Shown piece after piece: positions 24,401 to 54,200 of a stretch of DNA of 64,000 nucleotides. How positions within the stretch are numbered: position 1 is the first letter of the stretch; every line of letters begins with the position of its first letter. The notes beneath the pieces are model-generated. The model was given only the letters and a program-made list of their open reading frames with translations, was not told the origin of the DNA and ran no database searches. A program made the translations under genes and the position numbers. The stretch is from Epinephelus fuscoguttatus (lineage: Eukaryota; Chordata; Actinopteri; Perciformes; Serranidae): NCBI RefSeq assembly GCF_011397635.1, contig NC_064759.1, positions 13,598,428-13,662,427 on the forward strand, written 5' to 3'.

Positions 24401-27400
24401 TGATCCTGTAGGGCTGACTTTTTTTTTTTAAATTCACAGGTGATCCAGCAGGGATGGGGGGCTATGATGCGCTGGGGAGGCAGACTCAGTCAGAACCTGG
24501 CTGAGCTGAGCCTGAAGAAGGAGGAGATAAGGACAGATCTGCCGGGCCTCCAGGCCCAAGCAGGGAGTGATTTCGCTCCAGTCAGCGGTGGTGCTCAGGT
24601 TCCCTGGGGTCTGGGGCGGCTCTTCGGAGCCTCGAAAAGCCCCAACAGCCCACCAGGTCACACACCACCAACAAGGTTAGCCAATGAAGTGCTGATCCAG
24701 TATGAATCAAGATTCTGTTACTGCATTGCCAATTTCTCGCCTCAAATGTTTTCAGAAATATATTTCAGCTTAGTGTTTAACTATAATACGAGATTGTTTG
24801 TTACTAGCCGGCGGCCATTTGCGTTATGTCGCTGTGCAGCATAGTGCATCTACTGTACCTCTTAACCAAAAGTGAATATCACAGCCCGTTTCCACCAATT
24901 TCAAAAGTATTTGTGTCTTTCTACTGCATAGACAGCCTGATTTGAAAAAAAGACCATCTTTCCTGTGGTGAAATACGTCTTTAAGAAACCCTAAAGCCAT
25001 TGTTGGACTTGACATCGTTCCCTGCATGGTTAAACTGCATGAACGGTAACATTCTGTGATCCCTCTCTGCCCACCTGTCCCACTCCCTTTCTCTGTTTAT
25101 CCATTCCCCTCGTCCTCTTTGTGTCCGTCTCTGCAGGCGTCCCTCTCAGTGGCTGGCTCCTGGTGTCACCGCACTGACCCGAATGGTGAGCAGCAACTCC
25201 ACCCCGGTAATAAGGAGGGCCCCGGAGCCCAAGGGAGAGAGTGAGCCAAAGTCAGAGAAAGACACCGATACACTGGAGATGAAGGACAAACCCAGACCAC
25301 TCAGGTACAACAGACATGACGTGATAGGGATGGTTATGAATTTATGCATTTTGTCGGCCGAGGCACGATGAAATTGGGTGGGGAGGGATACATAAATCTT
25401 TTCCCTTCACTAATGCCAGATTTTACTTTTACTGACTTTAAAAATAACTCGTCCCTTAATATGACCACAGCTTAGGGGTTTGGCTCACTAATTCATTCAC
25501 ACATTTGCAAGATCACACCCTAATGTCTGTATTGACACATCTAATCTTCACTGTAATTTAAATACAGTTAGAGTACATTTTCAGGCTCAATAACACGTGG
25601 AGCACCTGTTAGGTGTTAATCCTCACTGGACAAAAGGCTCCTTCTGTTCGGGGATCAACATGTGGAAGTCCTTATCTGCAGGACTCAAACTGAAACAGCT
25701 TTTAGAAATAAGAAGCATGAAAATAAGAATTATTTAAAAATACAAAAAACATTGCATTACTCGACACTGTATACAAACGAGAAAGGAAAGTTTTAGAAAT
25801 ATAAAGATATGAGTATTATACTACAACGAACAACACTATATATATTGAAACAGAAAAATAACTAAGAAATATGTACATATGCATCATATGTTTAATGTAC
25901 ATGCAATGGTAGTGTAAGAACAATGAAAAGAATATTACACCAATTATTGTACAGTTAAGTCAGTATTGCACAGTTGAAAAATAATAAATCAATATGGGAA
26001 TTAGAACTGCAGATGGGTTAATTAGGCCCTAGGGCCAGTTGTGTTTTGTCTTGTTGAGTTTTTTTTCCTTTATATACAGAATTATTGTTGAGTTTGTGTT
26101 TTGTTCTGTCGCTTGTGTATTTTTTATTGAGTTTAAAGGCCTGTCTAGGGACGAGCATTGCAAATTAACTTAGGCTATAAATGCTGTAGTGTGTGGCATT
26201 GTTTTATGGTACTGTAGGCCACACACTTGTCCTTATACAAATAAACACTAAATAAATACATGTTAGGCATTTTGAAATAGAAATTGATTGGCATGATGGG
26301 AAAACAATGTTTTAGTTTGCAAATTTCAAACAATAGAAACTATAATTTTAAGAAAAACGGAAAAAGCATATCTTCATCCATGGCCTGGGTGTGGCATTAA
26401 AAGAAAATCAATTTGGGGTAGAAATAAAAGCATATAAAGGAACAGTGTGTAGGATTTAGTGGCATCTAATGGTGAGGATTGCAGATTACAACCAGCTGAA
26501 ACTTCTCCCATGTGCCAAGCGAGAACTCCCGGTTAGAATTCCTTCAGTGTTTATTGTTCAGGAGGTTTTTACTGGGAGACGAATTATCCGCATTGGTCTC
26601 TTCCTGTTGATTAAAACCTGTAAAAACACTGAATAAATCAGTTTTATATCAACACATTTTCCAATGCTGCTCATTGCTGAGGGGCTGCTGACTGTGGTTG
26701 CCAATGTGAAAACACCAATGGCCTTCCTAGAGCCAGTGATTGGGTTGGCTGTTCAGGGCTTCTGTAGAAACGTGGCGGTGCAACATGGTGGACTCATTGG
26801 TCATGGACCTGCTGCCTATGTAGATATAACGGCTCATTCTAAGGTAATAAAAACACAATTGTTCTTATTTTCAGGTGATTATACGCTAAAGAAAATATAC
26901 TTATCATAGTATATATTATTCCTGCCTGTATATATCCCTAAATCCTACACACTGGACCTTTAAATATGAGCTAATGCAACCAGCTTTCCCTCCCCAGGAT
27001 GTCTAGTTGTGTGTTTTTTCCTTTTAAAAACGACTTGTCTTCAGCAGTGGGCGTAGGAGACACCAGAGACGCTTCTGTTATCTTTTTTTGCCTTTGAAAG
27101 GCTATAATTGGTGACTCACAAGCGATGCCTGCATTGTGACTCACCCAGGATTCGGCTACATCGCATGTTGGCGATGACGTTATTGTTTGTGGTTGGTGTA
27201 TGTGTAGACCATTTAGGGCTGAGGAGATCTCTGCTGTCTGTCCTCAGGTCAGTACGAACGCTGTGTGACCACTCTGGAACGGGCTTGGAGCTCAGCTTCT
27301 GCAAAGGGGAGGAACTGGTGGTGTTGGGGGGAGTCGATCAGGACTGGATTCGCTGTCGTCAGGGAGACAAAGAGGGGCTGGTACCTATTGGCTACACCTC

Positions 27401-27413
27401 CCTCATCATGTGA
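12413..27413 (+). CDS. rusc1: RUN and SH3 domain-containing protein 1 (10 coding exons, 1,839 aa)
   Basis: RUSC proteins are cytoplasmic adaptors linking vesicle and signalling machinery through RUN and SH3 domains. Coding exons: 12413-15647, 18727-19533, 22460-22536, 22991-23165, 23481-23586, 23723-23769, 23847-24349, 24440-24675, 25137-25304, 27248-27413. Their phases match throughout (5,520 nt). Residues 1-1078 are one exon: disordered, with an acidic Asp/Glu run at about 225-262, a predicted helical block at about 386-492 (LLDFLESVGEFGKMERFSQV onward), and several polyproline stretches that could bind SH3 or EVH1 domains. The RUN domain spans about 1348-1560 (VSAVSVAVEAIL, LCPALHSLLTDGLKP, LETYYRPTSFMR). 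SH3 occupies about 1787-1839, with ALYDY-like LCDHSG, DQDWIRCR and GLVPIGY. It is roughly twice the length I recall for human RUSC1 and closer to RUSC2; the name rests on synteny with fdps and ash1l. The start ATG lies about 127 bases after an acceptor. Confidence 0.9.
17004..17585. mobile_element. piggyBac-like TTAA MITE inside an older AGGYGTAGATT-family element
   Basis: The inner element at 17138-17501 is flanked by TTAA on both sides (17134-17137, 17502-17505). Its ends are AGATATACTATGCAG and, reversed, AGGTATACTATGCAG. TTAA duplication is the piggyBac hallmark. The outer element starts near 'ataggcgtagattcc' (17004) and resumes after the insertion, ending 'aaacctacgccctta' near 17585. 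No transposase frame is present. The pair lies in rusc1 coding intron 1. Confidence 0.65.
20858..21366. mobile_element. GTGTGTAGGATTTA-type MITE, copy 1
   Basis: It begins 'aaaagaaacagtgtgtagga' and ends with the related reverse terminus 'taatcctgcacattgaa'. A second, cleaner copy lies at 26435-26962. Shared internal blocks include 'gctgaaacttctccca' and 'aggtgattatacgctaaaga'. It lies in a rusc1 intron. Confidence 0.6.
25372..26434. other. rusc1 last intron, AT-rich part
   Basis: AT-rich intron sequence; no gene seen. 'gaacaacactatatatattg' and similar low-complexity stretches occur without a clear repeat boundary. Confidence 0.4.
26435..26962. mobile_element. GTGTGTAGGATTTA-type MITE, copy 2
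   Basis: The termini AAAGGAACAGTGTGTAGGAT and, reversed, AAAGGTCCAGTGTGTAGGAT are near-identical inverted repeats. The sequence parallels copy 1 at 20858-21366 in the same orientation, so both rusc1 introns carry the same family. Confidence 0.65.
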
Positions 27414-30400
27414 CTTCGGCACCATAACTGCTGCACTCAATCAATAATAATAATTTAAAAAAATCAAAACAAATATATATATTTTAGGCGAGTGTTGAGA
27501 GGTTATGGTGAGGCTCCACTACTCTAAGAAGGGATATTTCACGCTCGCTCTGTTCAAGTTTGAGTTGACTGCATAACACCATCTGTTCTGCTTTACGTGC
27601 ATCAGGAGCAGTCTGCAGCCCTCTCCCTTCATGAACATATGGGAGTTTTTCTCCCCATCACAATCCATCCAGTTTGGTAGCATTAAACTAATGGATGTTA
27701 GCAGCAGGAATGCAGCAGATGGTGTGAAATAATGAAGTCAAATTTGGACCGTTTCATACTGGAAGACCTTTGATCTCAGAGTGAAGTATCCCTTTTAAAC
27801 ATCCTTTTTCCCAATTTCTGCCTCCCTTGTCAGCTGCTGATCTGAAAATGATCACAGGGGAATTTCCGTGCGGTCGACCACTTGCGGATTCTGGTGCTTT
27901 TCAGATCAGCGGCTGCCTGTCGTGAGGAGGCGACAGCCTGGTAGCAGCCAAGCTGACATCTCTAGCTGTCAGCCGTGGAGAGTCGCGGCTCGCAGGTTGT
28001 CGAGGGGAGAAAGCGTGTGAGAGTAGTGGGGCTGTAGCTCCTGTTGCATACCGCGTAGTAATGTAGTGAACTGTAGCTGTGTAGATCTGTGTTCTATTGA
28101 CCTTTCACCCCTATTGACCTCTCACGTTATCGCCTGGTTCATGTGTGTTTGACATGTTTCTGCTACTATATTTGACTGTATAAATATACATAAAAAAATC
28201 TATATATAGGTATATAAATTGAGATTGATATTACCAAGATAGATAGAAAGATAGATGAACAAGAGAAAGCAGATAGTAAAACACAAGCAGCAGCTTCATA
28301 CTGTGGTCACATTGAGGATGATTAAAACTCTTTACATCTGCAACTTTACTCACACATTAAGTGGTTGTCATACATCCAAAAAAAAAGTGTTTGTTTTAAG
28401 TATGGAAACCGATATCTTTCCTCCTGTGTGCTTCATGTATTGCCATTGTCTTGACATCATATTCATAACATTATTAGATTTAGCCTCATACCTTAAACAC
28501 TGTATGTTATGTGCCATGAATGCTTTGAATGAATGCCGGAAAATATCTATCTATACATCCCACGCAGTCGTAGAACATAATATCAGACAACAGCAATCTG
28601 TAGCTAATCTCTCCACTCGTCCAAAACCTCGCAGGGCCAACATGTGTCGGAGTAAACACCTCACAAAACTATGCTCAGCTCTTGTTCAAACACTATCTGA
28701 CCTTCGATTTAATGCAGTGAGAAAATCCCAGTTGTATGTAATTCATAAACGCTACTGTAAAGTCTATAGGTCTGGTGGCCGGTCTTCACCTCGTACCTCA
28801 GCTTTTGTATTTATCTACCATGTTTGCTCATCATAATCATTGATATTAATGATAGTGGTAGTATTGGTGGAAGTGATATGTTGATTCTAATGTTGCTTTG
28901 TGTCATATATTCATTAGTTATTCTCTAGATTCTGTATTGATGACTATGCATATGGTTAAATGTACAACTGAAAGCCTTTTTTTAGTTTGTTTTAAAGTCA
29001 CAGTTTTGCTTTGATGTTGACACCTGAAGCATAAACTAATTGCCTAACTGGTGAATATAAAAGTAGGGATGGGAATCGAGAACTGGTTTCAGATTGGAAT
29101 CGTATTCCTCCTAGCTCGTTGCTTTTATTGATACCGGCATGTTTTTTTTGCACATTGCAAAACAGTGATGTCAAACTTGTGCATCCACGCTGCTGGAAAC
29201 TTGCAACAGCGAGGTCCAAAGTGTGGCTTCATTTAAAAAAGAGATGACAACAGTGCTGTTTGTAACGTCAGTAAAATGATCATTTCAAGTTCTAGCGATA
29301 TGCTGGAACATCCTCGCACACAAGATGGTCTTAGATTTCAGGAATGCCATGCATTTGATGCTACATGAGTGCCACTGCTTCCAAACCGAGCTGCATGTCC
29401 ATTACAGAGGGTAAATATCCTCTGTTATAATAACATTAGCGCCACGCAGGGAGGCTTGGCAAATTTCCTCTTTGAAAAAGAAAGCACTTAAACAGCGGAG
29501 CGTTGTCCTTAATATTTTCCTGCCCAGGGTCTGCAGATGATAATTAGCGATGTGGCTAATTCTGGCTCAATAGTTGTGTTGCGCATGGCCCCTGTTAAAT
29601 AAAAACTAAAAACTAAAACCAAGCAGCCACCCTAACTATAAGATAAAATAAAATAAAAATCATTTCCATTTTATAAAAAAGTAAAATACAACACTTATTA
29701 CGCTACTGTCATGTGTGAAGTCTGGACTGATCACAAGAGGCCATTTTGGTCTGCAAAGATACATGACAGAGCTCATTGGCCTTCCAAAATTTGGATTGAT
29801 GTTTTACTTCATGGACTGTCCTCGGTGAAAACTAAACATAGAAAGCTGGGGACACTTTCTTTCTGTTAGCAGCAGGCAGCATCCTCCAGGGCTGAAATAC
29901 GAAGCGAAAACAGAAGTGCCAAAAAACTGCAGTTCCTCAAATGGCCACTTGAGGCTGGCTCTAAACTAAGTCAATCCCCATAGACCCCCGTGTTAAAACA
30001 CCCAACTTTACAGCAGAAATAAACATGTTTGCAGCCTGGTATTAAAAACAGTTTTGGTCTCTAAAGATAATTTCAACATTCATGACAATTGTAAATTTTT
30101 CTTTAGCTCAACTGTTTATACTTTATCAAGGCTTAAAGTTACGCATGATCAAGGGCGTGGCTGCTTTGAGTGACAGGCTGTCTGCTGATAGTGTCCTTGG
30201 CTTCTCAGTCTGATCCACCCCTCGTTCCTCCACAGCTCCACCCTCTGGCTTCACAAAAACAAGATGGCGACGGCCAAACTGCCAGACTTAAGGCAGTCCA
30301 CACACCAATGAGTGATGTCACCACATTTACCTCCATTATTTTAAACAGTCCTTGACTAAAACTAGCTTGAGTCAAGTGCATGCCTTTATTTCTACTCTGT

Positions 30401-31922: not shown

Positions 31923-33170
31923 GCCATGGGCAGATTATGAGACAATGACCCCCTGGGCACAGATACGTAAAAGGCCTCACCACATCGTCTACATAGAAGT
32001 ACTGGGCTTCTTTTTTGTTGTAGCAATTTAAGTCTTTTTTTGTGGCCATTTTGTGTTTATTTTAGGTTGTTTTGTCCTTTTTTGTAGTTATTTTGCTTCT
32101 CTGAGGTTATTTTGTGTCTCAATGAGATCATTTAGTGTTTTTTAGGTCATTTTGTGATGTTTTTTGGGTTGTTTTGCCTTTTTTTGTAGTTTTATTTGTG
32201 TCTCTTTGAGGTTATTTTGTGTCTTTTTGGTTGTTTTGCTCCTTTTTGTATTTATTTTGTGTCTCTTGAGGCCATTTTGTGTCCTCTTTGGTCATTGTGT
32301 GTCTCTTTGAGATCATTGAGATTTTTTTGTTAGGTATCTTTGTGTCTTTTTGGTCTTTTTTGTGTCTCTTTGAGGTCATTTCATGATGTTTTTAGGTAAT
32401 TTTATGTGTAGTTGGTTGTTTTGTGTCCCCCGGTAGTCATTTTGTGTTTCTTTTTGGTTGCTTTGCTCCTTTTTGTAGTCATTTTGTGTCTCTTATTGGT
32501 TGTTTTGCCCCTTCTTTTAGTCTTTTTTTGTTTCTTTTGGGGATTGTTTTGCCCCTTTTTGTCATTTTGTGTCTCTTAGGGTCATTGTGTGTCTCCCTGT
32601 AGTCACTTTGTGTCTCTTTATGGTTGATTTGTCCCTTTTTGTAGTTGTTCTATGTCTATTTGAGGTCGTTTTGTGTCTTCTTTGGTGGTTTTGTGTTGTG
32701 ATTTTGTACCTTTTTGGTTGTTTTTCCCCTTTTTGGAGTTATATTGTGTCTTCTTTAGTCGTTTTGTGTCATTTTATGGTTGATTTTTTCCTTTTTGTAC
32801 ATCTTTCATGTCTCTTTGAGGTCATTTTATGTCTTCATTGGTCGTTTTGTCTCTTTGAGGTCTTCTTTTAGGTAATTCTGTGTCTTTTGGTTGGTTTGCC
32901 TCTATTTGTAGTCCTTTTGTGTCTATTTGAGGTCATTTTGCGTCATCTTTGGTCGTTTTGCCCCTTTTGTTAGTTATTTTGTGTCTCTTTGCAGTTCCTT
33001 TGCATCTCTTTTGTTTTTGTGTCTCTTCCTGGTCAGTTCGTGTTGAGTGACATTCAGCAGGTGAAGGCACAGACACAGGCCCAGGTGGCCAAAGTGTCAG
33101 GGGCACCCCTGACACTTTGGCCACCTGGGCCTGTGCCACCTGGGCCTGTGCCCATTCAGTAACCCATCCA
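31923..33170. mobile_element. CATGG-terminus repeat family, copy 2, with long internal array
   Basis: It starts CCATGGGCAGATTATGAGAC and ends near 'cattcagtaacccatccat'. Almost all of 32030-33050 is the 'gtcattttgtgtctctttga' type array. Near the right end is a perfect 30-bp inverted repeat with a 2-base loop (33074-33103 and 33106-33135). It lies between the converging rusc1 and ash1l 3' ends. Confidence 0.65.
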
Positions 33171-35265: not shown

Positions 35266-35598
35266 TTATGAATGCTGCAGGGTCGAAAGTAAATCATTCA
35301 GCCGTTTCCTCCTCTGTTCTCTGCTGCAGACTTCTTCCTCCCCTCGTTTTTCTTCCTCTCCCTCCTCCTCGTGTCTGTTCTGGGTTTTGGTGGGCTGTGG
35401 TGAACAAGTATGCACAACTAATTGCAAAAGCAGATTTTTATCCTTGTGGGCATTTGAATTCTTAAAAGATTTTTTCTTGTACGTGGGCGGAGCTTCACTC
35501 ACACAGGGGCTGGCAGTGAGCGAGCTGGAGGTGTCCTGACTCTGATGGTGGGGGTCACTGCTGATAACCGTCACCTCCACCCCCACTTGCTGATCTGA
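35266..35598 (-). pseudogene. ash1l: Possible remnant of ash1l C-terminal coding exon(s)
   Basis: Minus-strand frames here encode VTVISSDPHHQSQDTSS and, further on, EEVCSREQRRKRLNDLLSTL. The latter resembles the human ASH1L tail around RRHNQRERLNQILLNLL. An acceptor (accctcag) precedes 35598. The frame ends at TAA (35268-35266) before the conserved tail is complete. A downstream piece reading GTDVTTLL (about 35110-35130, minus) resembles IDVTYLL of the tail but is out of frame with the first part. I read this as decayed tail sequence, though similarity is limited and it could be UTR. Confidence 0.4.
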
Positions 35599-36099
35599 GG
35601 GTCAGAGGTCAAACAGTATTCTGTATGTTAGTGAAGGCGCAGGAGGAGGTTAAGACAACAGCATTCATTTTACAGATATATCTGTAATTACGCCCTTGTT
35701 CCCCCTTGATTCCTATCTGCAATCAGTCAGGGAGTCTTTGATGGAAACTGTGTGGTTTCACTGCTAATGGGGAAAGTTGATGTCTGCTGGGTTCTTGGAC
35801 ACCAGCGGTGGATGACAGAAACGGGGAAACATTTCTGCAGGCTGAAATTCTGTGGTTGGAAAACCACTTTGCTTGCGCTGCTGAGTATGATATGGAGAGA
35901 CAAGCCAAATATGAGGACGGCAGGCTGTAAGCAGAGCACACACACGCACACATACATGCACACAGAAAGTAAAAGACACAACACGGGACACCAGAAGAAA
36001 TCTATACAGATGCCGAAATAAAAATGTATAGAGTTCGACCACATACACGTATGCATACACGAACACCTACAGAAACAAAAACTAACACACACACTTGCT

Positions 36100-39000
36100 T
36101 CATGGACCTGACTTGATGTGGCTGTCGTCCCCATTGGCTCCATCACAGGACAGGCGTCGTGAGTCCCTCTCCTCTGCCTCTGCGTCTCTCTCTCGCTCCC
36201 TCTCTATCCTCAGTCGGATCTGTCTGTCTCGCACAAGCTCCCAGTTCCTCACGAGGAAAACGTGGTGTTTCACCACAAAGCTCCTGGCCCGGCACACAGG
36301 GAGAAACATTAGCTCGCTGACATTAGTTCAGTAACAGAGCTTCAAGTACTTTATCTTGACACGCTGAGTTGTTTCCGTACCTCTCACTGCCGGTCAAAGG
36401 CTCCATGTCGAGGTGAGGAAACAGGCTGGTGATGTCACTAGCACTCTCCTCCTTTGAAGTGAAATGTAATGCGTGTAAGTTTTTACACTTATTAAAGCTG
36501 CATTCTTCGCTGGAATGAAACAACGTGAAGCCACATGAACTCACCGCTGATTGATGAGAGGATACAGTCCTTTCCTTCAGCCGGCCTGAGTGACACAGAG
36601 AGACAGACACAGAGTTAGACGCTGACGGAGAGCATTGATCTGATCCATCAATTAAACCTGGAGATAAGATGTCCAACAATGGCGACTCACAGTAACGTCG
36701 CTTCCTCTTCAGGGGGACAGCAGGCTGCTTTTGAAGCTGCGACAACACAACATGAGAATTACATGTACATTAAGACTCTCTACAAACCTCTTTGTAATAC
36801 TCTTTTATCTAGAGATGTTCCAATACCATTTTTTCCTTCACAATACCGATTCCAATACTTGAACTTCCGTATTCGCCGATGCCAAGTGCTGATTCCATAC
36901 TGTTCCTTGTATGTGAAAATATAACTCTTGTTGTATGGCATGGCTCAGGTTAAACCCCAAACTAGTGGGACTTTCCAGTTCCAAATAGCTGACATATTGC
37001 TAACAGCAAACGTTACACTATTTATCAGAAATCAATTCTTCTTCGGTGCTCTAAAACAGTAGTAGCCATTGGCTACACAGTGCAGCTCTTTGCGTAGGCC
37101 ACTGTATTAGAACAAAAAATTGATTTCCAGGTAAACTGCTGTGTGAAACTACTTTATATTTAATTGACAAATTTTATGGTTTCGAATCGATGCACAGACT
37201 TGCATACTCGCAGATACGAAATCCAGCATTTTAGGCAGTACAGAGGCATTTCCAGTACTGGTATCAGTGTAGGAACAACTCTACATCCAAAGATGCTTCA
37301 ACTTGAATGTTTTGCTTCTTGATTCTGTGTTAGGGGAAATGACTGTATATAAAGATGGAAGGTATGACTACTCCCCAAAAGTGAAGCCAAAATATCTCAA
37401 TTACCCCCTAGTGGCTGGCTGCAGTATAGGTCATAAACCCCGCCCCCTCCATGTTAGAGGAGTCAAATACATTTTTCCCAAAGATAGTTTCTGTCATTAT
37501 AGGTAAATCTTTTAATGCGGATATACTTTCAGGCCAGATGAGATATGTAATCCCTCCAGCGTGTCTTTGTTCTAACTCCTACCAGTGGGACGTGTCTGGA
37601 ACACCTCTAACGGGAGGCGCCCAGGAGGCATCCTGATCAGATGCCCGAACCACCTCAACTGACCCCTTTTGAAGCAAAGGACCAGCGGCTCTACTCTGAG
37701 CTCCCTCTGGATGTCAGAGCTCCTCCCCCATCTCTAAGGCTGAGCCCAGCCACCCACGAAGGAAACTCATGTCAGCTGCTTGTATCCATGAGCCGTGATC
37801 TCATTCTTTCGGTCACCACCCAGAGCTCATGACCGTAGGTGAGGACTGAGGGTATGGGGACACCGGTATGGGGTTTTTCTCAATAGTCTGAGTTGAGTTC
37901 ATTATTTGATGCCGTGGCTCCACCTCCTGATTGCTTCTGTGCAGACTGTCTCAAATCATGTCACCAGTGCAAGATGGCGGCACATGTATCCAGGATACTT
38001 TGGCTTCATTTTTGTACAGTGAGAGGAAGTGGAGACCATAAATGTACAATAAGAATTAGATACCAGACCCAAAGATAGCACCTATTGAGTCAAGTGGAAC
38101 TACTTGCATTGCGCATACGTCATAAAAAGTTTCTAGCTTCCAGGTTTATGTCCACAGTATTTGGCACACTGAATATGCGCAGTGGTGTTTCTCCTGCTGG
38201 CCCCGCCCGCGAGTTACTTCTTGGCTCATAGACTTTACATTGAGGAAAGTTTCACAAATGTAAAACCTCAATAGATCAAAAATTCATAATAGAAAAAGCC
38301 ATAATTGACCTTGTTTGCAGTACGAGGTGTCCTGTCAACAGTTTTACAGACGACTCTTTTGTAATAGTAGTCTATGGAAAAAATGCCTTCTGAGCTGCAG
38401 GTGATTTTCTTGCCGCAATACTGCAAGAGGCCACTGAGAAAAATTGGAGGCAAAGCTGAGCTGCTTTCCTGGGGGCTTAGTGGAGATGCATTGACCATCT
38501 TTATATACAGTCTATGGTTATGGGGCTCTACTGTACCTGATTGTTCTGCCACAGCCACATAACATCATAGGGTAACTGGAAATGAATCCGCTTCAGCCTA
38601 AGATACTTCCCTGGAGGACACAAAGGGAGTTTGGATGAGCTATCACAGCTACAACAAACTACAGCAGTGTTTGAATGTTCTGAAATACTCACCAACGTGT
38701 ATGGGAGCAGGTAAAAGGCTGTATTCATGCTCCCCTGGTGTGTATTCCATACTCTCTCTGCACAGCTGCTGGACTTGGGAGGGCGGGCTAAGAAAGACAC
38801 ACATTTTAAACATAAAAACCTGCTAACAAAAAAATCCCAAAAGTTACAGTTGTTTGTTAATGACTTCAGTCGACTCACTCTGTAGTTTTGTAATCATCAG
38901 AGTAAAGACCCGCCCTCAGAAACTTCTTCCTGGGAGGACCGTCTGCTCTCTCCTCTCTTTGGATGGTCACTGGTTGGGATGGAGCCTGCTCGACATCTGG

Positions 39001-42000
39001 TTGGCTAAAACACTCAGGGGGCGTGTCACACTCGGGTTTGTCCTCAGCAACACTAAAAGGAAAGCATGAAGAGAGAGAGATAGAATGATAGAGAGGAAAA
39101 AGAGAAAGAGAGAAAAGGCACTGGTTTAGCACACAGTGCTGAAAACAGTGGGTTAATATAGCAGTAGTGAGTGGTTGTATTGAATTTTCAAGTCAACCAG
39201 CTCATAATACAGTTGTGAGTGTTTACCTCTGATGACAAGGAGAGTCACCATGTTTTCTCTTCCGTCCTCTCTTCCTCTTGGCCTGCAGCTCCAGCTCTGT
39301 CACCTGCTGCACCGAGTCGCCTCCTTTATCTCTCTCTGGCCCTCTTTCGTCTTTCCTCCCTCCCAGTTCTCTCCCATCTCTGCTGTGTCCTGGCAAGAGG
39401 TCGGGTGATGACATGGAGGGAGCTGCAGATGAGTGCGTGGGGGAGGATGCAGTGGAGGGCAGTGGGTGCTTTCTGGGCCGCCCTGGCCTTCTTTTGTTTT
39501 TCCCCGCCACACCGTCTGGCGTTGGCACACTTTTCTGCTGCCCCCGGCTTCTTGAGTCACCTTGTAAACCTGCAGTCGTTGAAATGGAAAGAGGGAGGGA
39601 GGGGTTGAGGCAGAGGAGGGGTGTAAGTGGCAGAGAGGAAATGAGACAGATGTGGATCAGTGATTGAGCCAGCAGGAGGTGTGAGGTGAGGCCAGTCTAG
39701 GCTGAGTCATGCGGATGGGACACCGATTAGGTGAGTCACAACATTTCCTCTGACCAGTTCACTTCTGGGAAATGCATTAACAAGTAATTTATGTACACAC
39801 ATATGCAGCCACAAAAAAACACAAGAACTGACGCTGTGCAGAATGTGAAATATGAACATGCACACGTATGCACAAAAAACTGTTTTTGCACATTCAGCTA
39901 ATGTGGAACACAAGCTCAAAAGGCTGAGTAGATACAGAAAGGGAGAAAATATGTGCATGAGTGTGCCCGTGCTAGCGTGCTGCACTGCAAAACACATGTG
40001 TGTTTAGTTAGATGATGAACTGATGTCAAATGTATTCCACTTCTCTCAAAAACAACATTTTCCCTTCACAGGCTCTCTTTGCCCCCATTCTGACCTCCAT
40101 GCTGTTCCTTCATCAATCGCTCCTGAGGTCATCTATCTTTTTGTTCCATTTTCCACAGTCCCTGACAAGACTGACCACTCTTTCCTTATTGGATTTTTCC
40201 AAGTCAAATAGGCCCTGTTGGCCAGCAGTGAGGGATAGGCCAGGCTTTAAATAGCCAATCTGGTGGTTAACTAATGACTGTGTTCACTGGGTAGCCCCGG
40301 GCTGCAACAGCGTGTGGTTCGCTGCAGGCCGGGGAAGATTTCAAAGATTTTCTGGAAGATTCCCATCAAGATGCTGCCCTCCTGCTATAACACTTTTTAA
40401 AAATTCCGACAGAGAGTGGTTGCTGAGTGGTTGTGTTTATGTGTGTGTTAGGCACGTCCCCTGCACAGCAGAGAGGGAGTCTGAAATTGGCTATAAAAAG
40501 AACGGAGTCTGATTTCCTCTCAAACACCCTCCAGGCTTTGATGTGTGGCTCAACAACACCTGAGAAAAAGCAATGCTGTCACTATACTGGGCAAACTATT
40601 GGTGCCGCAATCTCATCTCCACATTGGGCAAATATAAAAATCTGTCATACTGTGCAAGTGAAAAGAGCCTCTTGGCATAAAACCTATTCACTCAGCTGGC
40701 TGTCATGTTTTAGGTGCTGTTGTTGTATTTCAATGATAAGCACAGTTGATGTTAGATTTTCCATATAACCTAAATTACTGTCAGGGTTCTAGTTATGCAT
40801 ATTTTCTGCCAGTAAGAGAATTCAACTGTGCATTCACACAACTCAAGAAGCAATGGAGCTTTTAGCAGCATTCATCAGCACAGTTTCCAGCCAGAGAAAT
40901 ACTACCATTGCAGTATCTGTACCAGCTTTAGCACTAATGCTAACATGACCTCATACTGAGACATCAGACAGAAGCACAGCGCTCTATTCATTCACACATT
41001 CACTGATCAAACCATTCATGCGTCCTCACCTGCTTCTCTCCTCTCAGTCCACGCTGGCTCATCTCTCCTCCATGACCTGTCTCCACTTCCTGGATTCCTA
41101 CCAGCCAATCCACTCCTCAGACCCCTCCCCCCTGTTGCCATGGCAGCGGATGTGAACAGGTTGGTGTGCGTCGGAGACGGGGACGTTCTGTACAGGTGCG
41201 AGTCGTCCTCGCCGTCTTCGTCCTCTCCGTCTGATGCAATCTGCCTGCCTGTGTGCTGCTCCCCGGTGAAGCCTCTCCAGCTGGGAGTTGAATTTCCAAA
41301 TCCTGTGCCTCCCAGGCCCCCGAATTTTGACCAGCTCTGGCCCAGGCCGCCCCAGCTTCCTCCAAACGAAGACAGGTGAGAGGAGCCCAGCCCCAGGGAG
41401 GTGAGAGATGAGTGTTTGTACCTCTCTGCTGAAGATGACGATGATGTGGCAGCAGCAGCAGCAGAGGAGAAGGAATCACTTCCATTCTCACATAACCAAG
41501 ATGATTCTTTAGACAGCATACTCCCCATTCCTCTTGGCCCTTTCCTTCCTCCTTCTCCTTGCCCCAAAATGAACCCTGACCTTGGCTTTGAACTGGCCAA
41601 CCCCTCCCTCTCCATTCCATCTTCCTCCTCATCCTCGTGTAACTCCTCCTCGTCATCCAAGTCCCGCTCGCAGTGCCTGTGACGGTGTTTATGCTTGTGT
41701 TTGTGTTCGCTCCTCCCACAGCCACAGGAGAGGCCAGACGTGAACCCTGAGCTGAGGTGTGGGCCTCCTCCACTGCCTCCTCCTATATCTCCATCGACCT
41801 CTCCCCCTAAAGCTCCCTCCCTCAGCAACCTGCTCCTCCGCCTGTGGAATCGGGCGGGGTTGAGGAGGAAGTGGGCATGATGGGGCTGATGGGGTGCATA
41901 CTGGTGTGGAGAGGGAAGCGGGTAGGAGCTAGGGAGGTGGTGGTAAAGTGTCGTGGCCGGGGGATAGCTGCTGTAAAAGCCCATGTTTTCGATGGTCTCC

Positions 42001-45000
42001 TGGAACTTTGATGGGCAACCACATTGCCTGCGGTCTGGCTTCCTGTTGCAATGCACAGGCTGGCAGGGGTAGAAAGGTTGGGGGGAGAAGGAGGGATTAG
42101 CAGAGTAAGATGAAGGGTGAGGAGAGTAGAAGCCATTCAGATTGATCCTGAAGATGTTGGAGCGGAGAGAATGGGAGGAGGAGTGATGACGCCTTCCTCC
42201 AGCAGCATTCCCACTCCCATCAAAGCCCTGTCCAAGCCCCGTCCTGGCCCAGCTTCGCCGTCCGATATGGACCTCACTAAACTGACCAATCAGATCCTCT
42301 AGCTCAGCCAGAAACTCTGGATCCTGCATGTGCAGCTGCTGGTGCTTCTTCTTATGCTTATTTTTCTGTCTCTTCAGTGCATTGTGTCCAAGGCAAGAGT
42401 AATAGTCCGAATGAGTGCACTTGTTGTGTCCTGGGCAGGGGCATGGGCACATGCAAGTGCAGGAGGAGGAACAGTCATAATCCCTTCGCCTGTGCCTGTG
42501 TCTTTCTCTGTGCCGCTCCGCAGAAGTAGAGTTGCCGATGGGGTTTGTGTGTCTGGGCATGAGAGAGAGGGGTGAAGAAACAGGGGAGGGACGGTCCACA
42601 AGAGAGGAGGGGTGCCTTTGACTCCCCAGAGTCACTCCTGACCCCTGACCCAACCTGAGCATGCCTCGAACTCCCCTCATCTCCGCTCGTTCGGAAACGC
42701 TGTTGTTATCCGTTCCAATCCCACTATCGCTAGGCAGCGTCTCCTCGCTGTGTGACTCACTCCTGGGGGAGGGAGTGGCCTCTTTCAGATGGCCAGGAGA
42801 GCCGGGTGTGTGATGCAGCGGTGGGGTGGGACAGGAGAGCTTACATGAAGACTGGTGAAAGGGGAAGTGATGCCTTCCCTGGCATGGACAACTCTTCTTC
42901 ACAAAGGGAGAGAGGGATGAGGAGGAGGGAGGACGAGGGGAGGTACAGGAGGATGATGGGGAAGGGAGGGAGAAGGTATGAGGAAAAAGTAGGGAGGATG
43001 TTGGCTCTGTGAGGCTGCCTTCACTATAGGGGCTCTGGGCCCCACTGGAGTGGGTGAGAGATGGGGAGGGAAATGGGTGGGAGGGAGGAGGCTGGGGTTG
43101 GTTAGATGAGAAGAGAGATGTTTCAGAGGGATTGGTAAACAGCGACGACTGAGTGGCGCTCTGGGAGTTGGAATTAGCTGTTTGGGCTTTAGGCTTGCGT
43201 CCTCGCCTCTTGCCCATATAGATGGTCCCTCTCTTGCTCACATTGATCTGAGGGCCCAGTTTACTCCCAAAGGGGGAGGACAGAGCTGAGAGTGTGGGTA
43301 CTGTTGTAGCCTCTATCAATTTACACATTCTTAGAGAGGTCTCACCATCTGGTGCCTGGCCTTCCCTTCCCTCCTTTCCCACATACCCTGACAGCATTAC
43401 CTTGTGAAGTCTCCTCTTCTTTCTTTTCTTCATCTCGTTAATCAGCCTCCTGATCTTTAGCTGCCGGTTCCCCTTCTCAGGAGGATGAAAATCTTTACCC
43501 CTGTCAGTGCGATTCAGTGCATCTCCACTCTGGTCCTCGGGGAGGGGTCGTTTGGGAGGACGGCCACGCTTCTTGGGGCTGGATTTAGACTGAGCAGCAC
43601 ACTGCAGTTTGGGACTTGGCTCCAGCACAGGGGCTTTTTGAACTCCGTCACACCCCAGAAGAGGCACCTCAGTTGGGACAGCGCTTGGAGAAAGTCTAGG
43701 GGGAGGTTCATCTAAGCTAGAGCTGTGGGATTTAGGGCGGCCCCTTTTTCGGGCAGGGGTTAGGGGGCATCTGGAAGCAGGGGGGCTAGGGTCTGATGTG
43801 GGGTGACTCTGCTTTGGGGATGGAGGTTTAGTTGCAGCAGAGAGAGGGGAGGAGCTGCTGGTTAAGGAGCTAGACGGAGCTGGGTGTGACTCATCAGTCT
43901 GCTGGATAGTGGCCTTGGCAGGGAGGGATGTCTTGGGGTTCTGGGGGAAACTTAGTAAAGGATTATGTTGGGAATCTGACGGGGCTTCCTGATTTTCCGC
44001 CCTCTGAGCCCGGTGCACCAGCTTGGTCCAGCTGGGCCGTCTGGCTTTACGTTTCTTGAGCGGGCGGCTGTCCTGCTCTTGGGGGGAAGAAGGGGGAGAG
44101 ACGGGGGCACGGGCAGAGGGAGTGGGCAGGAAGGGAGGAGCAGAAGAAGAGGGGTGGCTTGGAGGCACAGTTGAATGTCTTGAGACGTCTTGTTCTTTTG
44201 ATTTACTGGTGTCACCTGTTGCTGGCTCAGCTTGTTTAACTGGCTTGCAACTGTCATCCGTCTTTTCTATCTCATCTGCTCTGCCTGGATTCACTACTTT
44301 ACAGGTTTTATCCAGTTTACCACCATCAGCTGTCTCACCACATTTATTATCCTCTGTTTTTTGTCTGTCCGGGCTAAGCTTGTCCCTCTTTGTCTCAGCC
44401 TTTCCTCTTTCAATCTTTAGTTCATCCCTCCATGTATCATCAGTCCTATGTCTCTCATCCTTTTCTTTTCCATGCCTTGATTTCCCATCCTTCCCTTTCT
44501 CCTTTTTCTTCTTCTTACCTTCCTCCTTTCTGCCCTCACTCTTTGCTCTTTCGGCCTCCAATCTGTCTCGCTTTGATTTTTTGTCTTTCCGTTTCTCCTT
44601 TTTTGCTTTCCTCTCTCTGTCTTTCTTTTTCTCTAAAGAGGGATCCTGATCTTGGGATTGGGCAGAGGAGACATCCACAGTGGGGGAGGACTGTGGTTTA
44701 GAGTTGACTGAAGGAGAGGAAGGAGAATCTGGCTTACTCTTACTGGACTGTTCTTTATGAGAGCTGGTGGAGGCTGGAGGTCTTGTAGAGGAGTCCATGG
44801 AGGAAGCAGAGGAGGAAGTGCTGTGTTTTCCAGCTTTGCTTTTCGACGCGGTGGAAGTGCCAAGGATGTCGCCGGAGCCTTTCCCATTGGACAGTCCCTT
44901 CTGTTTTGTTGTTTGCACCAAACCATTATGTTTCTTGGAGGTCTTGCCTTCGTTCCTGGTATCCGATGCAGACGGGGCTTGGATGCACGCAGCAGAAGGA

Positions 45001-46680
45001 GTAGTTGAAGCTGTCTGGTCTGTTGTGGGCGAGCAGGGTTTGTGTCCTGCAGAGACAGGCTGGCCATTGACACTAGGAGGCTTCTCTTTCTTCACTCTCT
45101 CTGATGAGCCATTTGAATTCACCTCTGTCTTATCGGCCAGTTTGATAGGAACCTGGGGAGTGCAAACAGGGAATCTCTGTCATAGACAACAATGGCTGTG
45201 ACATCCATTAGTTTGCTGTTGACAATGACGAAGGACAATGGGGAAGAGACAACAACTCAAATGCTTTTGTTTTTGTCCGCCCATTAAAAGAGAGAGTGAG
45301 GACAAAATGACTCAATCAGGCAGAGAAAAGAGGGCATACTGAAGAGAAGGAGAGAGTGAGGTGATGGAAACAGGAATGGGGTTGACACAGAAAGGAGAAA
45401 TACAAAGGCAGAGAAACAGAGAGGAAGGGAGTGGGACAGGGACAGAGGGGGAGTGAAAGATAAATGAGAGCAGGTAGAGGAAAGAGGGGATGTAAAAATA
45501 GAAGAGAGGGACAGATATAGAGAGCCAAGCAGAGACAGAAAGAGAGAGAGAAAGCTGCGCTATTGGTAGCTATAAATTGCCACTAATACAGATGAGAAGG
45601 CTTGACATTTCGTACTTGTCCTGTAATTTTGGTATGCTGCAGCTTGAGTGGCGTTTGTGCAGCTAAAGCAATAAGCTTTCCCTTGGGTGATTGTCATAGG
45701 GACTGATGGACCAATGTCTGTAATAGCTCCAAGTGGTTGCCGTGCTGTTGTCCTATTTATAGGTCTGTTTATTTAAATGGGCTGCTTAGGTTTCAGTATT
45801 GAGACAATGGCTTATTTGACCTTATTACAACTGAGCACAAAGCTGAGGGATTTTGCACCATATAAGTATGTCTGGCTGTTAACTGCAAGATGAGTAACAA
45901 AGCAGAGCTACAGCACATGTGTGCACACCTTCAGTCACTGTAACACTTAGTTTTTCCATTATAGGCTTGCAGATTTAATACTGGCAGCTGACATGAGTTA
46001 ATCTGTGTGTGTGCACTCTAACTTACCTGTTTGGCTGACTTGGTCCCTTGGCTGGTAATGGCAGGGACTGAGGCTGTCGTGGAAGCTGTGGTAAATGTTG
46101 ATGATGACGACACTGGCTGCGAAGATGATGATGATGATGATGATGACGATGCAAGTGGTGGTGAAGCAGCAGATGCAGTTAGTTTGGATGTGGTCTGGAC
46201 AGCATCCAAGCCTGAGCGTTGATCTCTGGTTGCCTCGACTGGAGCAGAGCTGGTTTTGTTCTGCGGTCCTCCGTCTCCATCCCCCTTTACCAGCCCCCCC
46301 CTGCCTTGTCTCTGATAGGTCCTGATGGTGGGCTTGCAGACGTAGCTCTCCAAGATCTTGGGCGGTTTCTTGGTGCGCTTGGCCTGGAGTCCAATTCGGA
46401 GTCGCACATTCCCCTCGGGGCAGCTGGTCTCCCTGCCAGAGATCTGAAGCTGCTGCTCCCCTGCGCTTCCACAGCGCCCCTCGATGAGCAGCTCCAGCAC
46501 TGCCCCCTTATCTCCCTCTCTCTTCTTCCCTGCTCCTCTTTTCTCCTCCTCCTTTTCCCCTACATCTCCATTCTCCCCCTCACCCCTCCTCTTTTTCTCT
46601 GCCACTTCAGAGTCTTCGGATGCAGAGGTGGGGTCCAGAGTTGTGGTTGGAGGGGTTCCCCCCTTCACTCTCTGGTCCAT
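36100..46680 (-). CDS. ash1l: ASH1-like protein lacking SET, bromodomain, PHD and BAH (10 coding exons, about 1,924 aa)
   Basis: ASH1L is a nuclear H3K36 methyltransferase. Coding exons on the minus strand: 46680-46027, 45152-41030, 39569-39227, 39052-38879, 38757-38693, 38610-38537, 36736-36691, 36585-36545, 36451-36381, 36283-36100. Phases are consistent (5,775 nt with stop). Conserved landmarks: [14 protein letters not shown] in exon 1; [20 protein letters not shown] and [18 protein letters not shown] in the 4.1-kb exon 2; AT-hook cores [15 protein letters not shown] and RRPGRPRK; then [33 protein letters not shown] and [13 protein letters not shown]. The last two exons give the post-SET motif [12 protein letters not shown]. 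The AWS-SET-post-SET block that should sit between 38537 and 36736 is missing. So are the bromodomain, PHD and BAH parts. Translation stops at TGA 36102-36100, unless a weak donor at 36107 is used. Gene identity is firm; whether the truncated form is biological is open. Confidence 0.85.
36809..37283. mobile_element. hAT-like MITE in the ash1l SET gap
   Basis: The left end TAGAGATGTTCCAATACC and the right end (reversed TAGAGTTGTTCCTACACTG) are imperfect inverted repeats of the style seen in teleost hAT elements. No frame and no clear duplication was found. It fills part of the interval where ash1l should carry its SET exons. Confidence 0.5.
37340..38515. mobile_element. Composite element with ACTGTATATAAAGATGG ends in the ash1l SET gap
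   Basis: ACTGTATATAAAGATGG near 37342 and its reverse complement CCATCTTTATATACAGT near 38497-38513 bound about 1.15 kb. Inside, 37585-37850 is a fragment typical of dispersed teleost retroposons ('ggcgcccaggaggcatcctg', 'accagcggctctactctgag'), probably non-LTR derived. Together with the hAT-like element it accounts for nearly the whole 1.8-kb interval between ash1l exons. Confidence 0.55.
39620..41029. other. ash1l intron 2, no further gene seen
   Basis: This spacer lies between the 4.1-kb exon and the AT-hook exon. It holds ordinary intron sequence with no supportable frame on either strand. Confidence 0.4.
45290..45555. repeat. Purine-rich GA tract in ash1l intron 1
   Basis: About 265 bases of almost pure A/G on the plus strand with many 'gagag' repeats, giving a pyrimidine-rich run on the gene strand. 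It sits just upstream of the exon 2 acceptor region (45152). Confidence 0.6.
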
Positions 46681-49482: not shown

Positions 49483-50649
49483 TGATGATATGACTTACAA
49501 TCCTGTTGTGCAGAGTTACTATAAGAAGAGAATAAGAGTGGCAGGTTTTCAAACTTAAAAGGGCAAGCCCATTCAGCATCAGTCAAAGTGCATACTAATA
49601 GCTTTTTATACTCTCCAGAGCTATACCTCTCACACATAACTCAAAATTATTCCAACATTAGACCAGAAGCTATTTCCAGTGACAGGATGATGGGTGGACT
49701 TGACACTGCAGTCAGTGTGGGTTCCTCGGCAGCGCTGAGGCGACGATTAAATCATGATAATGGCCCACCATATTTCCAGCCATCATCACCATCCCATGAC
49801 GGTGTTATTATCAATAACTACAACACCATTATCATCTGCCTGACAACAGCACAGAAGCCCCTGCTGGAAATTAGGGCTGCTGTGATGGCATCTTAAAAAA
49901 CACTGAGCCGTGAAGCCTCCACTCCACATATACAAGGGAAGTTTCTCACGTGAGTCTCCCTCCTCCTCACACACACACTTTCTCCTAGTTAGTGTATTAC
50001 AAGTGTGTTGGTCGTACATTGTGTACCCAGGTCGCAGCTGCGTAGGTTGACTGATGTTGCTACTGTAGATACAGTATGGGCAGTGGGGGTGTTACCGCAC
50101 TGGAGCAACCTATCACTGGTTTACTGAAGACGTCAACAGGGGCTTCCTTCTCCATAATGACTTTGCGCACCTCTGAAAATCACTATCCGCCTGATGCTGT
50201 CGCACTTACAAATGATACACACATGCACGTGTTGTTGTTGTCGTCACTCCTATCTCCGTAATGAAATATAAAGCGCATTTGAGCGCCCTGAAAAAAACAC
50301 GCACGAATAGAAACTCAACATGGAAGTGGGCTTGCTACGTAGCATCAAAAATGTGCTTGCTAGTGGTGTTTGTGATGTGGCTTAGTCCCCGAGCCACCTT
50401 TTTTCTCTGCTATCTGTCCTCTGCCAGCCCTTCTGCTGGTGTCAGCAACATTGAAATAAGAAATATCACCGTGCACGGAGAACACGGGGGGAAACATACT
50501 CAGCAACAAGGGATAAAATTAGCGCAAATCGGATGCACAAAATCCCCAGTAACCTCCAGTGCTGTGTGAGCTCGCTGATGATGACAGGCCTGCACACATT
50601 AATACAGACTGCCATGAAAATCTGTAATAAGGCTACGTAGGCTACTTAC

Positions 50650-51040
50650 CCGAGAGCGCGTCCCGGAGCCAACTGCGTTTAGGCAGGAGGTTAAGGTGTT
50701 GCTGTCCTGCTCGCCCCTTCGCACCAACAGCAATCCGGAGCTTTTTGGTGCATTAGATGTTGCTTTGATTACATAACTAAGGCCAGCGGAGGTTAAAACA
50801 CCTCCTAAAACCGAGTTTCAGTCTCATCGGAGCGCAGAGCCTACTGTGCAACAACATTGGCGCGGGTGTTTTCATAATCACACTAGTCGACAGATCTTCG
50901 TCGGCGCGTCTCCGCAGCTAGGTGGCGGACTGGTTACACTGGATCTTATTTTTGCTTTCCACTTCTCTCGGGGAAAGTTACATCTGCCGCCCGCCAGTAA
51001 TAATGGCTCAGATTGTGCTCACACGAGCTGTTAACGTGTC
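50650..51040 (-). promoter_or_regulatory. ash1l: ash1l promoter and 5' UTR exon (5' bound uncertain)
   Basis: On the minus strand, a CG-bearing segment ends CGCTCTCGG before a consensus donor (gtaagt, 50649-50644). The next acceptor (ccccacag) is at about 46710, 29 bases before the start ATG at 46680. The sequence up to about 51.1 kb is richer in CG dinucleotides than its surroundings. A TG-rich tract lies at 51071-51118. The start site is inferred. Confidence 0.5.
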
Positions 51041-51299
51041 AGGACGACGGGGCTGAAGGGCTGCAGCAGCGTGTGTGCGTATGTGTGTGTGCGTGTGTCT
51101 GTGTGTGTGGATGTGTGCGGGGTTACAGGCTGTGACAGTGCAGAGGGGTTGGTGGATGTGCGGGAATGCAATTGCGTGGCCATTTTCATGTGGCCAGAGG
51201 AGGAGATAAAACGGCGAACACAGCACAGGATCTCATTGCGGTTCATAATAGGCGATTGGGGAGGGCTATTTAGACGCTTAATAAAATGGCGACGACTTG

Positions 51300-54200
51300 T
51301 CTAAAGTAGGCTGCTGGTAGGAATTTGGGGGAGCAGCTCAAAAGTTGCGTCGCCGTAATGTAATAGGGGATTCAGTTTACACTAGTGGGAGAGGAGAGAA
51401 GGGCATGCTGGGGCTGAGCACTTATTAAAAAGTTAATATGTGAGAGCTGTTTATTATGAATCAGTTAAACAGGAAATATTGATCCAGAATACAAGCAGTG
51501 TTTTTCCACAGTCATGCAGCAGGAATACACAAAATCTGTACACAACCAAACATATTTCTAATATATACACAGTTTATATACATGTTTAGTAAAACAATAA
51601 AGTAATAATGGTAACAAAATAATAAATAATATTAAGAAACAACATTATTATCAGACTATTATTGTTCATTATTATTATTTGTTATATACTGTGTTATGTA
51701 GTAGTAGTAGCCATGGATGGATTACTGAAGGGGCCTACCGGGCACAGGCCCAGGGGCCCAAAGTGTCAAGGCCCCCCCTGGCCTTCACCTGCAAAATGCC
51801 ACTCAAATGAACTCGTACTGACCAGGAAGAGGCACAAAAAGAAAACAAAGGCATGCAAAGGATCTGCAAAGAGACACAAGATAACTAAGAAAAGGGGCAA
51901 AACAAACAGACAGACATAAAACAACCAAAGATGACACAAAATGACCTCAAGAGGGACCCCTGGCCTTCACTTGCAAAATGTCAAATGTCAGAGAAGCGTC
52001 TACTGATGAGGAGACTCATAATGACCACAAAGAGATGCAAAGGAACTGCAAAGAGGTACACAATAACTACAAAACAAGCAAAACAACTACAACATGACTA
52101 GGAAGTGACACAATACAACCAAAAAAACACACAAAATTACCTTAAAGAAAAACAAAACCACACAAATATATATAATGCCTACAAACAGACACAAAACCAC
52201 CACAAAATCTGTGTCTTGTTCCTGTGTAGGAAAGGTGGTGGGGCTCTTTGCATATCTGTGCCCAGGGCCCCATTGTCTCATAATCTGCCAGTTGAAGAAG
52301 TGAGAAACACTATTACTGTTGTTTTATTGTTTATAGGTCTATAGAGGGTCGCAAGGATGTATACAGGTTTCATTTCAACATTTCTGGGGACACATGAAAC
52401 AGGTGGTCTGCAGGGTCCTTGGCCGGAAAATCTTGAGCATTAAACACTATTTCCTGCATTCTGGTGATTGTTTATACATCAACTTGTGCTTTTTTGCATC
52501 AATTTATGGTGTGGATTAAATTAAAAGTCCTCTGCTACTTTTGTGTTTTTACTGGAGCGGGGGCACGTCTTACAAATTGAGAGGGATGTATCCCCTGTAT
52601 GCCCCTCGAAATCTACACCTGTGGAGGGCCAGATGAGCCCACTGTAACAAATATTAGCTTTTGGCCCTTATTGCCCCGTGTTCCTCCTGTTTATATCACT
52701 ATATTTATATTTTTTGTGTTTATATTTTAGCCCTATATTTTACCTTGCACTATTTCATGGCTTGGGTTCAGATTTGGTTTTTACCTATGTGATTTTCTTT
52801 TTAATCAATATGAAAATGTTTGTATGATATTAATATATTTACAGATATTGAAGAGAGCCTGAGAGGCCTACTATTCCCATAGTCAACAACTGCTTCTCTG
52901 TTACTATTGAGTACATGACAACAATAAAGAACTTGAACTTGAACTCTGTAACCTCAAAATACCCATTTAGTGCACGTAACAAACTCATGACTTTCACCTG
53001 TACCCAGCAAACAGCCAGTACTGCTTTCTGAGGGTCTGCTGTATGTACAATAGTTATTAGTTAGTTGGGTGATTAATATCAAAAACACAAAGGACAATTT
53101 AACTGAGAATAAAGTTTTTTAAAACTAGATTTAGAGTCTCTCTACAAGACAGAGCCACAGGATGACGTAATAATTGGGACTTGTCATAAGGATGCTGCAG
53201 TGGTGCATACTGCAAAAATTGGAGGGCAGATTAGTAATTATTTAAATTACTACAGGGCCCTGGGCCACTGGGGCTGTTGCCCATTTTGCCTGATCGGTAA
53301 TCCATCCTTGCCAACACATGGCCAGATCTCTTTAAGAGGCTCCAGATGACATGATTTTGGTCTCTATGGCTAACCCCAAACCATCACCTCCTGCCGCATG
53401 TGCTTTGTGTATAAGCCCTATCAGCTATGTTCCCATCAAGTACAGTGTGCATGTAGACCCTCTTTTTCCAGCATAGGCGGTGGTAGATTTACTGGAGACA
53501 GTTTTTTTAAATGATGTATTTTGTTTGAACACGACTTTAGTCAGAAATATGCACCAGGGGACTGTACATTTTTTGAGAGGATTATCACTTTCATGACAAT
53601 GCCAAAAAAATCAAAAAAGCCTCTGCATTCACGGCTGTGATGAAATGATCAAAGTTTAAAGACTGAAGCATGCACAGCCTCTCGTTCTCATGCACAGTAC
53701 AAACTAAACAAATTAAGGCCACATTAGGCCACCTTAGTTGATAATATACTTCAGTGGAGCATTTTTCTAAACCAATTTGCAGTTATTCAACATACATACA
53801 AACAATTGACATCCAGTGAACCGTGCTCTTTATAGAGGCCCTAGAGGTCAGAGGCTCCCTGCATGGGGCAACCTCCCCCTCTGCTTGCTTGTTAATCCAA
53901 CCTTTGACATAGCCTACATCTCATATAAGCTATAGGCCACAGTATTTAAAAGCTATTTCCTGTTTTAGAGGATTTGGTAGTTTAAAATACAAAGAATTCA
54001 TTTTCAACTAAGAATATTATGGAGCAATTTGAGGCTTGAGAAGCTAGTTGAAAGGTAGATGTGGAACATGTGTTTCTCATCATGAATACAGGAGGCTGCA
54101 ACTTGTGTTTCATCTCCCTGGAAATCTTATAGAATTATAAAATTGAAAATACTGGTTTTAAAAAAGGCAAAATCTCTCATGCATCCTGTCAAGTGAGTCC

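Follow-up and report, generated by a model that had tools for sequence, protein, structure and literature searches.

Gene structure of the ash1l copy on C8

The window analysed here is a 64-kb stretch of contig C8 (C8:13598428-13662427), and positions given without a contig name refer to it. On its minus strand, from 46680 to 35266, lies an ash1l gene (the C8 copy), which is modelled as 12 coding exons encoding a protein of 2005 amino acids. All 11 introns of this model are GT-AG, all junctions are in phase, and there are no internal stops. Upstream of the gene, a stretch of raised CpG content (50251..51500; observed/expected ratio 0.74-0.89 in 500-base windows, compared with a mean of 0.39, and a G+C content of 0.48-0.52) is a possible promoter, and it is taken as weak support for one because three other places in the window, near 1-750, 6251 and 10251, reach similar values. 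The plus strand carries a rusc-like gene (12413-27400) whose tail faces that of ash1l; it has a large proline-rich exon, a RUN match at 23825-24400 (E 0.0023, below the Pfam cut-off) and an SH3-like end recognized by eye at ~27300-27430. Apart from the RUN match, this label was assigned by eye; RUSC1 and ASH1L are likewise arranged tail to tail in human.

Coding exon 1 (46027..46680) starts with MDQRVKGG and includes a 27-residue block common to the paralog on contig C17 and to the presumed human ASH1L sequence. Coding exon 2 (41030..45152; 4123 nt) holds AT-hook cores and two conserved blocks of 23 and 19 residues. The original prediction described this 4.1-kb exon as fully open, and indeed it has no in-frame stop from 45152 to 41030, compared with a mean of 45.9 and a minimum of 29 in 300 first-order Markov simulations. 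AT-hooks had also been expected in the SET-less product, and a motif scan gave seven pattern matches, from which those at residues 48 and 422 were dropped as not AT-hook-like. The five AT-hook or AT-hook-like cores retained are RKRGRP (residue 686; 43734..43751), KKRGRP (residue 745; 43557..43574) and the AT-hook-like KRRGRK (residue 866; 43194..43211), all with coordinates derived from the residue number, plus one AT-hook and one AT-hook-like core in coding exon 3 (39227..39569). The C8 protein looks, in our judgement, largely disordered. No relatives of it were found in viral_contigs, and a single match in genome_contigs, to a bacterial MAG (query residues 118-189), falls in a serine/proline-rich part and was taken as chance.

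The C17 paralog is collinear with the C8 copy, in which both the ASH1L-family N-terminal blocks and the gene structure are present. Exons 4 (38879..39052) and 5 (38693..38787) were placed using the splice model and comparison with C17; the former has 174 nt in C8, while the C17 boundary gives 173, one base before a GT donor, and is hence read as 174. Exons 5, 6 (38537..38610) and 7 (36691..36736) measure 95, 74 and 46 nt, respectively, in C8 and C17 alike. The splicing path proposed originally, from exon 6 to exon 7 and on to exons 8, 9 and 10, proved to be GT-AG and in phase throughout. Exon 7 had been regarded as a replacement exon; it is instead the counterpart of the LYKKPDVPLYKK exon, and the final one ahead of the missing AWS-SET block. 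Intron 6 (38536-36737) contains an element of 1172 bp (37341..38512) with perfect 18-nt terminal inverted repeats (arms 37341-37358 and 38495-38512), which is probably a non-autonomous DNA transposon.

The two copies part after exon 7. In C17, the AWS-SET-post-SET exons come next, the final one being of 150 nt, whereas in C8 this place is occupied by an intron 7 of only 105 nt (36586..36690). Behind this intron and a new acceptor, the C8 copy retains about a quarter of the C17 post-SET exon as exon 8 (36545..36585; 41 nt, encoding RLKERT), the counterpart of its 3' end. Exon 9 (36381..36451), placed like exons 4 and 5, and exon 10 (36108..36283), which encodes a linker ending in HIKS, measure 71 and 176 nt compared with 68 and 167 in C17, and the frame is kept because these differences are of 3 and 9 nt. 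The block in exon 10 had been labelled post-SET. However, in the human query, where AWS covers residues 39-77, SET 92-197 and the bromodomain 397-471, it lies at ~297-308, past AWS and SET and before the bromodomain. In C17, exon 10 leads into the bromodomain, PHD and BAH exons; in C8, it is followed by intron 10 (35595..36107; 513 nt), which occupies their place, and then by a short tail. Sequence loss at two places would have taken out the AWS-SET-post-SET block and the bromodomain-PHD-BAH block with the reading frame retained.

The C-terminal end also differs from that of the original prediction, which let the protein stop at the TGA at 36102-36100. This codon, inside intron 10, is probably not the end: at the corresponding position, a splice donor is present in C17 (AAGTCAG|GTGAG, compared with AAGTCAG|GTCCAT at 36108 in C8, which is where the C8 donor was placed), the TGA sits a few bases beyond the exon 10 donor, and two more in-phase exons downstream carry the frame to 35266. 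Since GTCCAT, judged by eye, makes a weak donor in C8, read-through to the TGA is possible as an isoform, whose domain content would be identical to that of the full model. The predicted length of 1,924 residues was recounted as 1934 up to this TGA and 2005 for the full model. Exon 11 (35503..35594) is predicted from splice sites and phase only and has no clear homology. Exon 12, which includes the stop (35266..35394), contains REQRRKRLNDLLSTLQH, which resembles REAQRERLNKILLDLLH of the C17 tail. When the last 20 residues of C8 were compared with a 31-residue piece of the C17 tail picked by eye, none of 5000 shuffles was as good; the similarity of the entire C8 tail to the entire C17 tail is weak (62 of 2000 shuffles as good), and so is that to the presumed human tail (65 of 2000). 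No counterpart of the last human ASH1L exon was detected in C8, and past 35266 nothing resembling a remnant of the lost last exon could be distinguished from background.

Missing domains and the complete copy on C17

The query used for the missing region was the C-terminal part of human ASH1L. Its identity was checked in two ways: ASH1L entries of the PDB matched it, and a Pfam scan recovered its AWS, SET, bromodomain, PHD and BAH domains. In a tblastn search of the 64-kb window, exon 10 alone matches this query (E 1.7e-6), and the remaining matches have E values of at least 2. No SET sequence was found by tblastn in intron 6 beyond one chance-level match (E 3), and Pfam returned no domain for the three stretches that compose the C8 protein model. 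The AWS-SET-post-SET block, the bromodomain, the PHD finger and the BAH domain are all absent from the C8 gene and from the window.

The search was extended to the assembly (1.047 Gb in 26 contigs), where 57 of 79 candidates were scored, giving 36 matches. Fifteen of them, with 60-90% identity, lie at C17:19.643-19.659 Mb and cover everything from AWS through the BAH region; the remaining 21 do not exceed 58% identity and resemble members of other SET, bromodomain or BAH families. Among the candidates scored, no ASH1L-type domain exon was found outside C17, and neither this search nor the window tblastn revealed relocated SET exons near the window on C8. The loss of the SET, bromodomain, PHD and BAH regions announced in the original prediction is thus upheld by three kinds of search. 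Likewise, the second complete ash1l locus that it had suggested looking for exists: C17 carries the one complete ash1l of the assembly, with the window gene as a second copy that lacks the catalytic and reader domains. With the corrections given above, the SET-less, reader-less gene is real, and the prediction is in this respect partly confirmed.

Age, origin and a third locus on C6

In 511 codons picked for conservation, the C8 and C17 copies differ with pS 0.74 and pN 0.23; pS is 0.75-0.83 (saturated) in exons 1-3 and 6, and 0.34-0.70 in the short exons 4, 5 and 7-10. Without picking of sites, 467 of the 1164 aligned residues of exon 2 are identical, and when polarized with the presumed human sequence, the changes in this exon are 212 C8-specific versus 58 C17-specific. 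C8 evolves faster than C17, which indicates that its constraint is relaxed. Exon 7, which adjoins the lost SET block, has 15 residues, of which 7 in C8 and one in C17 differ from the presumed human sequence, and this divergence points to an old loss. Judged by these comparisons, the C8 copy is a faster-evolving and probably old duplicate.

The C8/C17 pair is likely a product of the teleost genome duplication. The original prediction had mentioned that the gene might be one of two fish duplicates; the complete second copy is there on C17, and the genome-duplication origin can be called likely only. Two SET genes that we take to be KMT2B-like, L002 (C17:20482431) and L003 (C8:24391260), are 90% alike over 99 residues and nearer to each other than to L004; this pair, the only one of its kind, fits duplicate chromosomes or a whole-genome duplication. 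In 80 kb of C17, no flanking gene shared by the two ash1l copies was seen, and a candidate 5' neighbour common to both (window 58988-58614) is full of stops and was taken as a repeat. Similarly, Rusc1 was not seen beside ash1l in the stretches of C17 and C6 examined; a RUN-domain search gave no match on C17, and the same search also missed the split RUN domain of the window itself.

A third locus was found when a 240-residue piece of exon 2 was compared with the assembly: besides C8 itself and C17, the four matches included two on C6. This locus (C6:21593598-21620580) has an ASH1L-like N-terminal block, AT-hook cores, a 39-residue sequence and the HVQKILRAKRLQRQAKTGNN exon; the last of its exons to be identified closes with a stop codon, ahead of FxLP (the motif described below) and SET. 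In the next 59 kb of C6, there was no credible match to FxLP, SET, bromodomain, PHD or BAH, the three matches to the SET-BAH query having E values of 2.7-7.8. C6 and C8 have in common the N-terminal ASH1L blocks, the AT-hook cores and the lack of any SET to BAH region found, while C6 is more diverged and ends before FxLP.

A tree of four sequences (the presumed human one, C17, C8 and C6) did not separate the grouping of C8 with C17 (AU 0.58) from that of C8 with C6 (AU 0.47); the third grouping had an AU value of 0.02. The two-against-two site patterns number 24 for C8+C6, 13 for C8+C17 and 10 for C8+human. Both results are unsafe because of long branches. The excess of C8+C6 patterns would not fit a simple C8-C17 pair, and long branches may be its cause; if C8 and C6 were indeed sisters, a single ancestral loss of SET would be possible.

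The MRG15 motif and the possible roles of the C8 protein

ASH1L has been studied mainly as an H3K36 methyltransferase. As far as we know, little is understood of its long N-terminal half, and the C8 gene, which keeps this half and the putative MRG15 site without the enzyme, would represent a natural separation of scaffold from catalysis. Neither the motif described below, nor the probable C-terminal exons 11 and 12, nor the third locus on C6 formed part of the original prediction.

Alignment to human ASH1L revealed within exon 6, ahead of the missing AWS block, the sequence FQLP (38570..38581, minus strand), which is an FxLP motif. According to PMC5963871 and PMC8106495, FxLP is the MRG15-binding site of human and fly ASH1, is located ~40 residues before AWS, and its binding by MRG15 activates SET. 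The C8 stretch matches the human ASH1L chains 6INE (E 3e-17, with 33 of 48 residues identical by count) and 6AGO (E 1e-11); in the search with the FxLP exon, two of the five sequences listed are ASH1L chains and the other three are Utp12 (E 0.7-1). The FQLP residues are unchanged in C8, and the prolines P2064 and P2067, named in PMC8106495, appear to be kept as P-A-V-P. The F-x-L-P pattern occurs once more, at residue 945 within Ser/Pro-rich sequence, where it was taken as chance. A genome-wide search for exons 4-7 gave five matches, on C17 and C8 only.

The conservation of this region was assessed at sites where C17 equals the presumed human sequence. C8 has changed at 13 of 49 such sites in exons 5 and 6, whereas for exons 1-4 and 7 taken together the figure is 275 of 615, a difference with a Fisher p of 0.016; the grouping was made post hoc, and the human sequence is for the most part a presumed one. 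Of the 49 such sites in exons 9-10, 22 have changed. By this measure, exons 5-6, around FxLP, are the best-kept part of C8.

The C8 copy is probably a maintained, non-catalytic paralog of ash1l rather than a dead gene. The original view that its state is not one of simple decay gains support from a frame that stays open and correctly spliced over 6 kb: the model contains no disabling stop, frameshift or broken splice site, its weak point being the GTCCAT donor after 36108. On balance, we lean towards the gene being an intact paralog, presumably expressed, that stems from the teleost genome duplication and acts as a chromatin scaffold and/or a competitor of the C17 copy for MRG15. In this view, the AT-hooks and N-terminal motifs would attach the product to chromatin and FxLP would attach it to MRG15, and it would be unable to methylate H3K36; as a competitor, it would draw MRG15 away from the catalytic C17 copy. 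Such a putative role, an AT-hook scaffold or competitor in the original prediction, fits the retained AT-hook cores and FxLP motif. Taken as a whole, the main idea of the original prediction is supported.

It is also conceivable, if rather unlikely, that the protein is functional through its AT-hooks and N-terminal motifs and that FxLP is a remnant, in which case the N-terminal half would bind chromatin and there would be no competition for MRG15. Six of the eight blocks conserved in the presumed human sequence, C17 and C8 precede exon 4, and the C6 copy, which has kept these N-terminal blocks too but stops short of FxLP and SET, may share this role; its existence indicates that members of the family can persist without FxLP. 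The site patterns (24 for C8+C6 versus 13 for C8+C17) point in the same direction. However, FxLP as a remnant is at odds with its location in the best-kept exons of C8 and with the unchanged FQLP residues. A pseudogene that lost its domains too recently to have acquired any disabling mutation is improbable. The relaxed, fast evolution of C8, the domain loss and the shortened tail would agree with it, but the 6-kb frame is intact with its 11 GT-AG introns, and under neutral drift a divergence of 0.4-0.7% would already bring the probability of one or more disabling changes to 95% (assuming indel-to-substitution ratios of 0.05 and 0.12), yet exon 7 has changed at almost half of its residues. Finally, an assembly artefact, in which domain exons were dropped from C8 or C8 was joined with other sequence as a chimera, is very hard to reconcile with a window that has no N bases, with two losses that both leave in-phase splice sites, with flanking exons that have diverged from C17, so that C8 is not a collapsed C17 copy, and with the lack of any orphan ASH1L-type SET, bromodomain, PHD or BAH exon elsewhere among the 57 of 79 candidates scored.

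Compared with ASH1L and fly ASH1 of the AMC complex (ASH1-MRG15-Caf1), the C8 protein is alike in the N-terminal motifs, the AT-hook cores, the FxLP site, the lengths of exons 5-7 (as in C17) and the end of the tail, and it differs in having no AWS-SET-post-SET, bromodomain, PHD or BAH. The ASH1 subunit of this complex binds both MRG15 and RBBP4/7 (Caf1), whereas in C8 the MRG15 motif alone could be recognized from the sequence. Non-catalytic paralogs of chromatin enzymes are of a known kind, and C8 is a case in which the N-terminal and putative MRG15-binding functions of ASH1L stand apart from its catalysis. NSD3-short, a SET-less adaptor that comes from a related H3K36 methyltransferase gene (PMC10815784), resembles C8 in being a SET-less product of this family; nevertheless, it is an isoform of one gene, while C8 is a separate gene that lost exons and, with them, the reader domains too.

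The fly ASH1 transgenes without SET described in PMC8426247 are, like C8, ASH1 proteins lacking this domain, although they are engineered and have SET alone removed. As reported there, ASH1 without SET binds chromatin like the wild type and flies can reach adulthood, although an ectopic bristle is seen in more than 90% of those rescued in this way; removal of BAH alone lowers mitotic binding to 41.5%. Neither of the two lost blocks is therefore dispensable in the fly, since BAH loss cuts binding and SET loss gives the ectopic bristle.

Surveys based on the SET domain or the bromodomain have reported a single ash1l each for zebrafish and tilapia (PMC2200798, PMC9454494), and such surveys would miss SET-less copies by design. 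Among the papers found in a search for ash1l duplicates in fish, no title or opening of an abstract describes a SET-less copy, which is no proof of its absence from print. The significance of the C8 gene would rise if other fish have a SET-less ash1l.

A broader proposal, which we put forward tentatively, is that the family in this fish lost its enzyme on at least one occasion, and perhaps on two, leaving C8 as an MRG15- and DNA-binding antagonist of the catalytic copy and C6 as a DNA-binding half, with the N-terminal half as a separately maintained module. If this were true, ASH1L would have an N-terminal function that is hidden behind the methyltransferase.

Downstream of the 3' end of ash1l, the window contains a degenerate array of ~21-, 42- and 83-nt units of the ACACAAAATGAC type (32039-33011). 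Similar sequence is present at ~51720-52293, and there are matches near C17:19667500-19668200.
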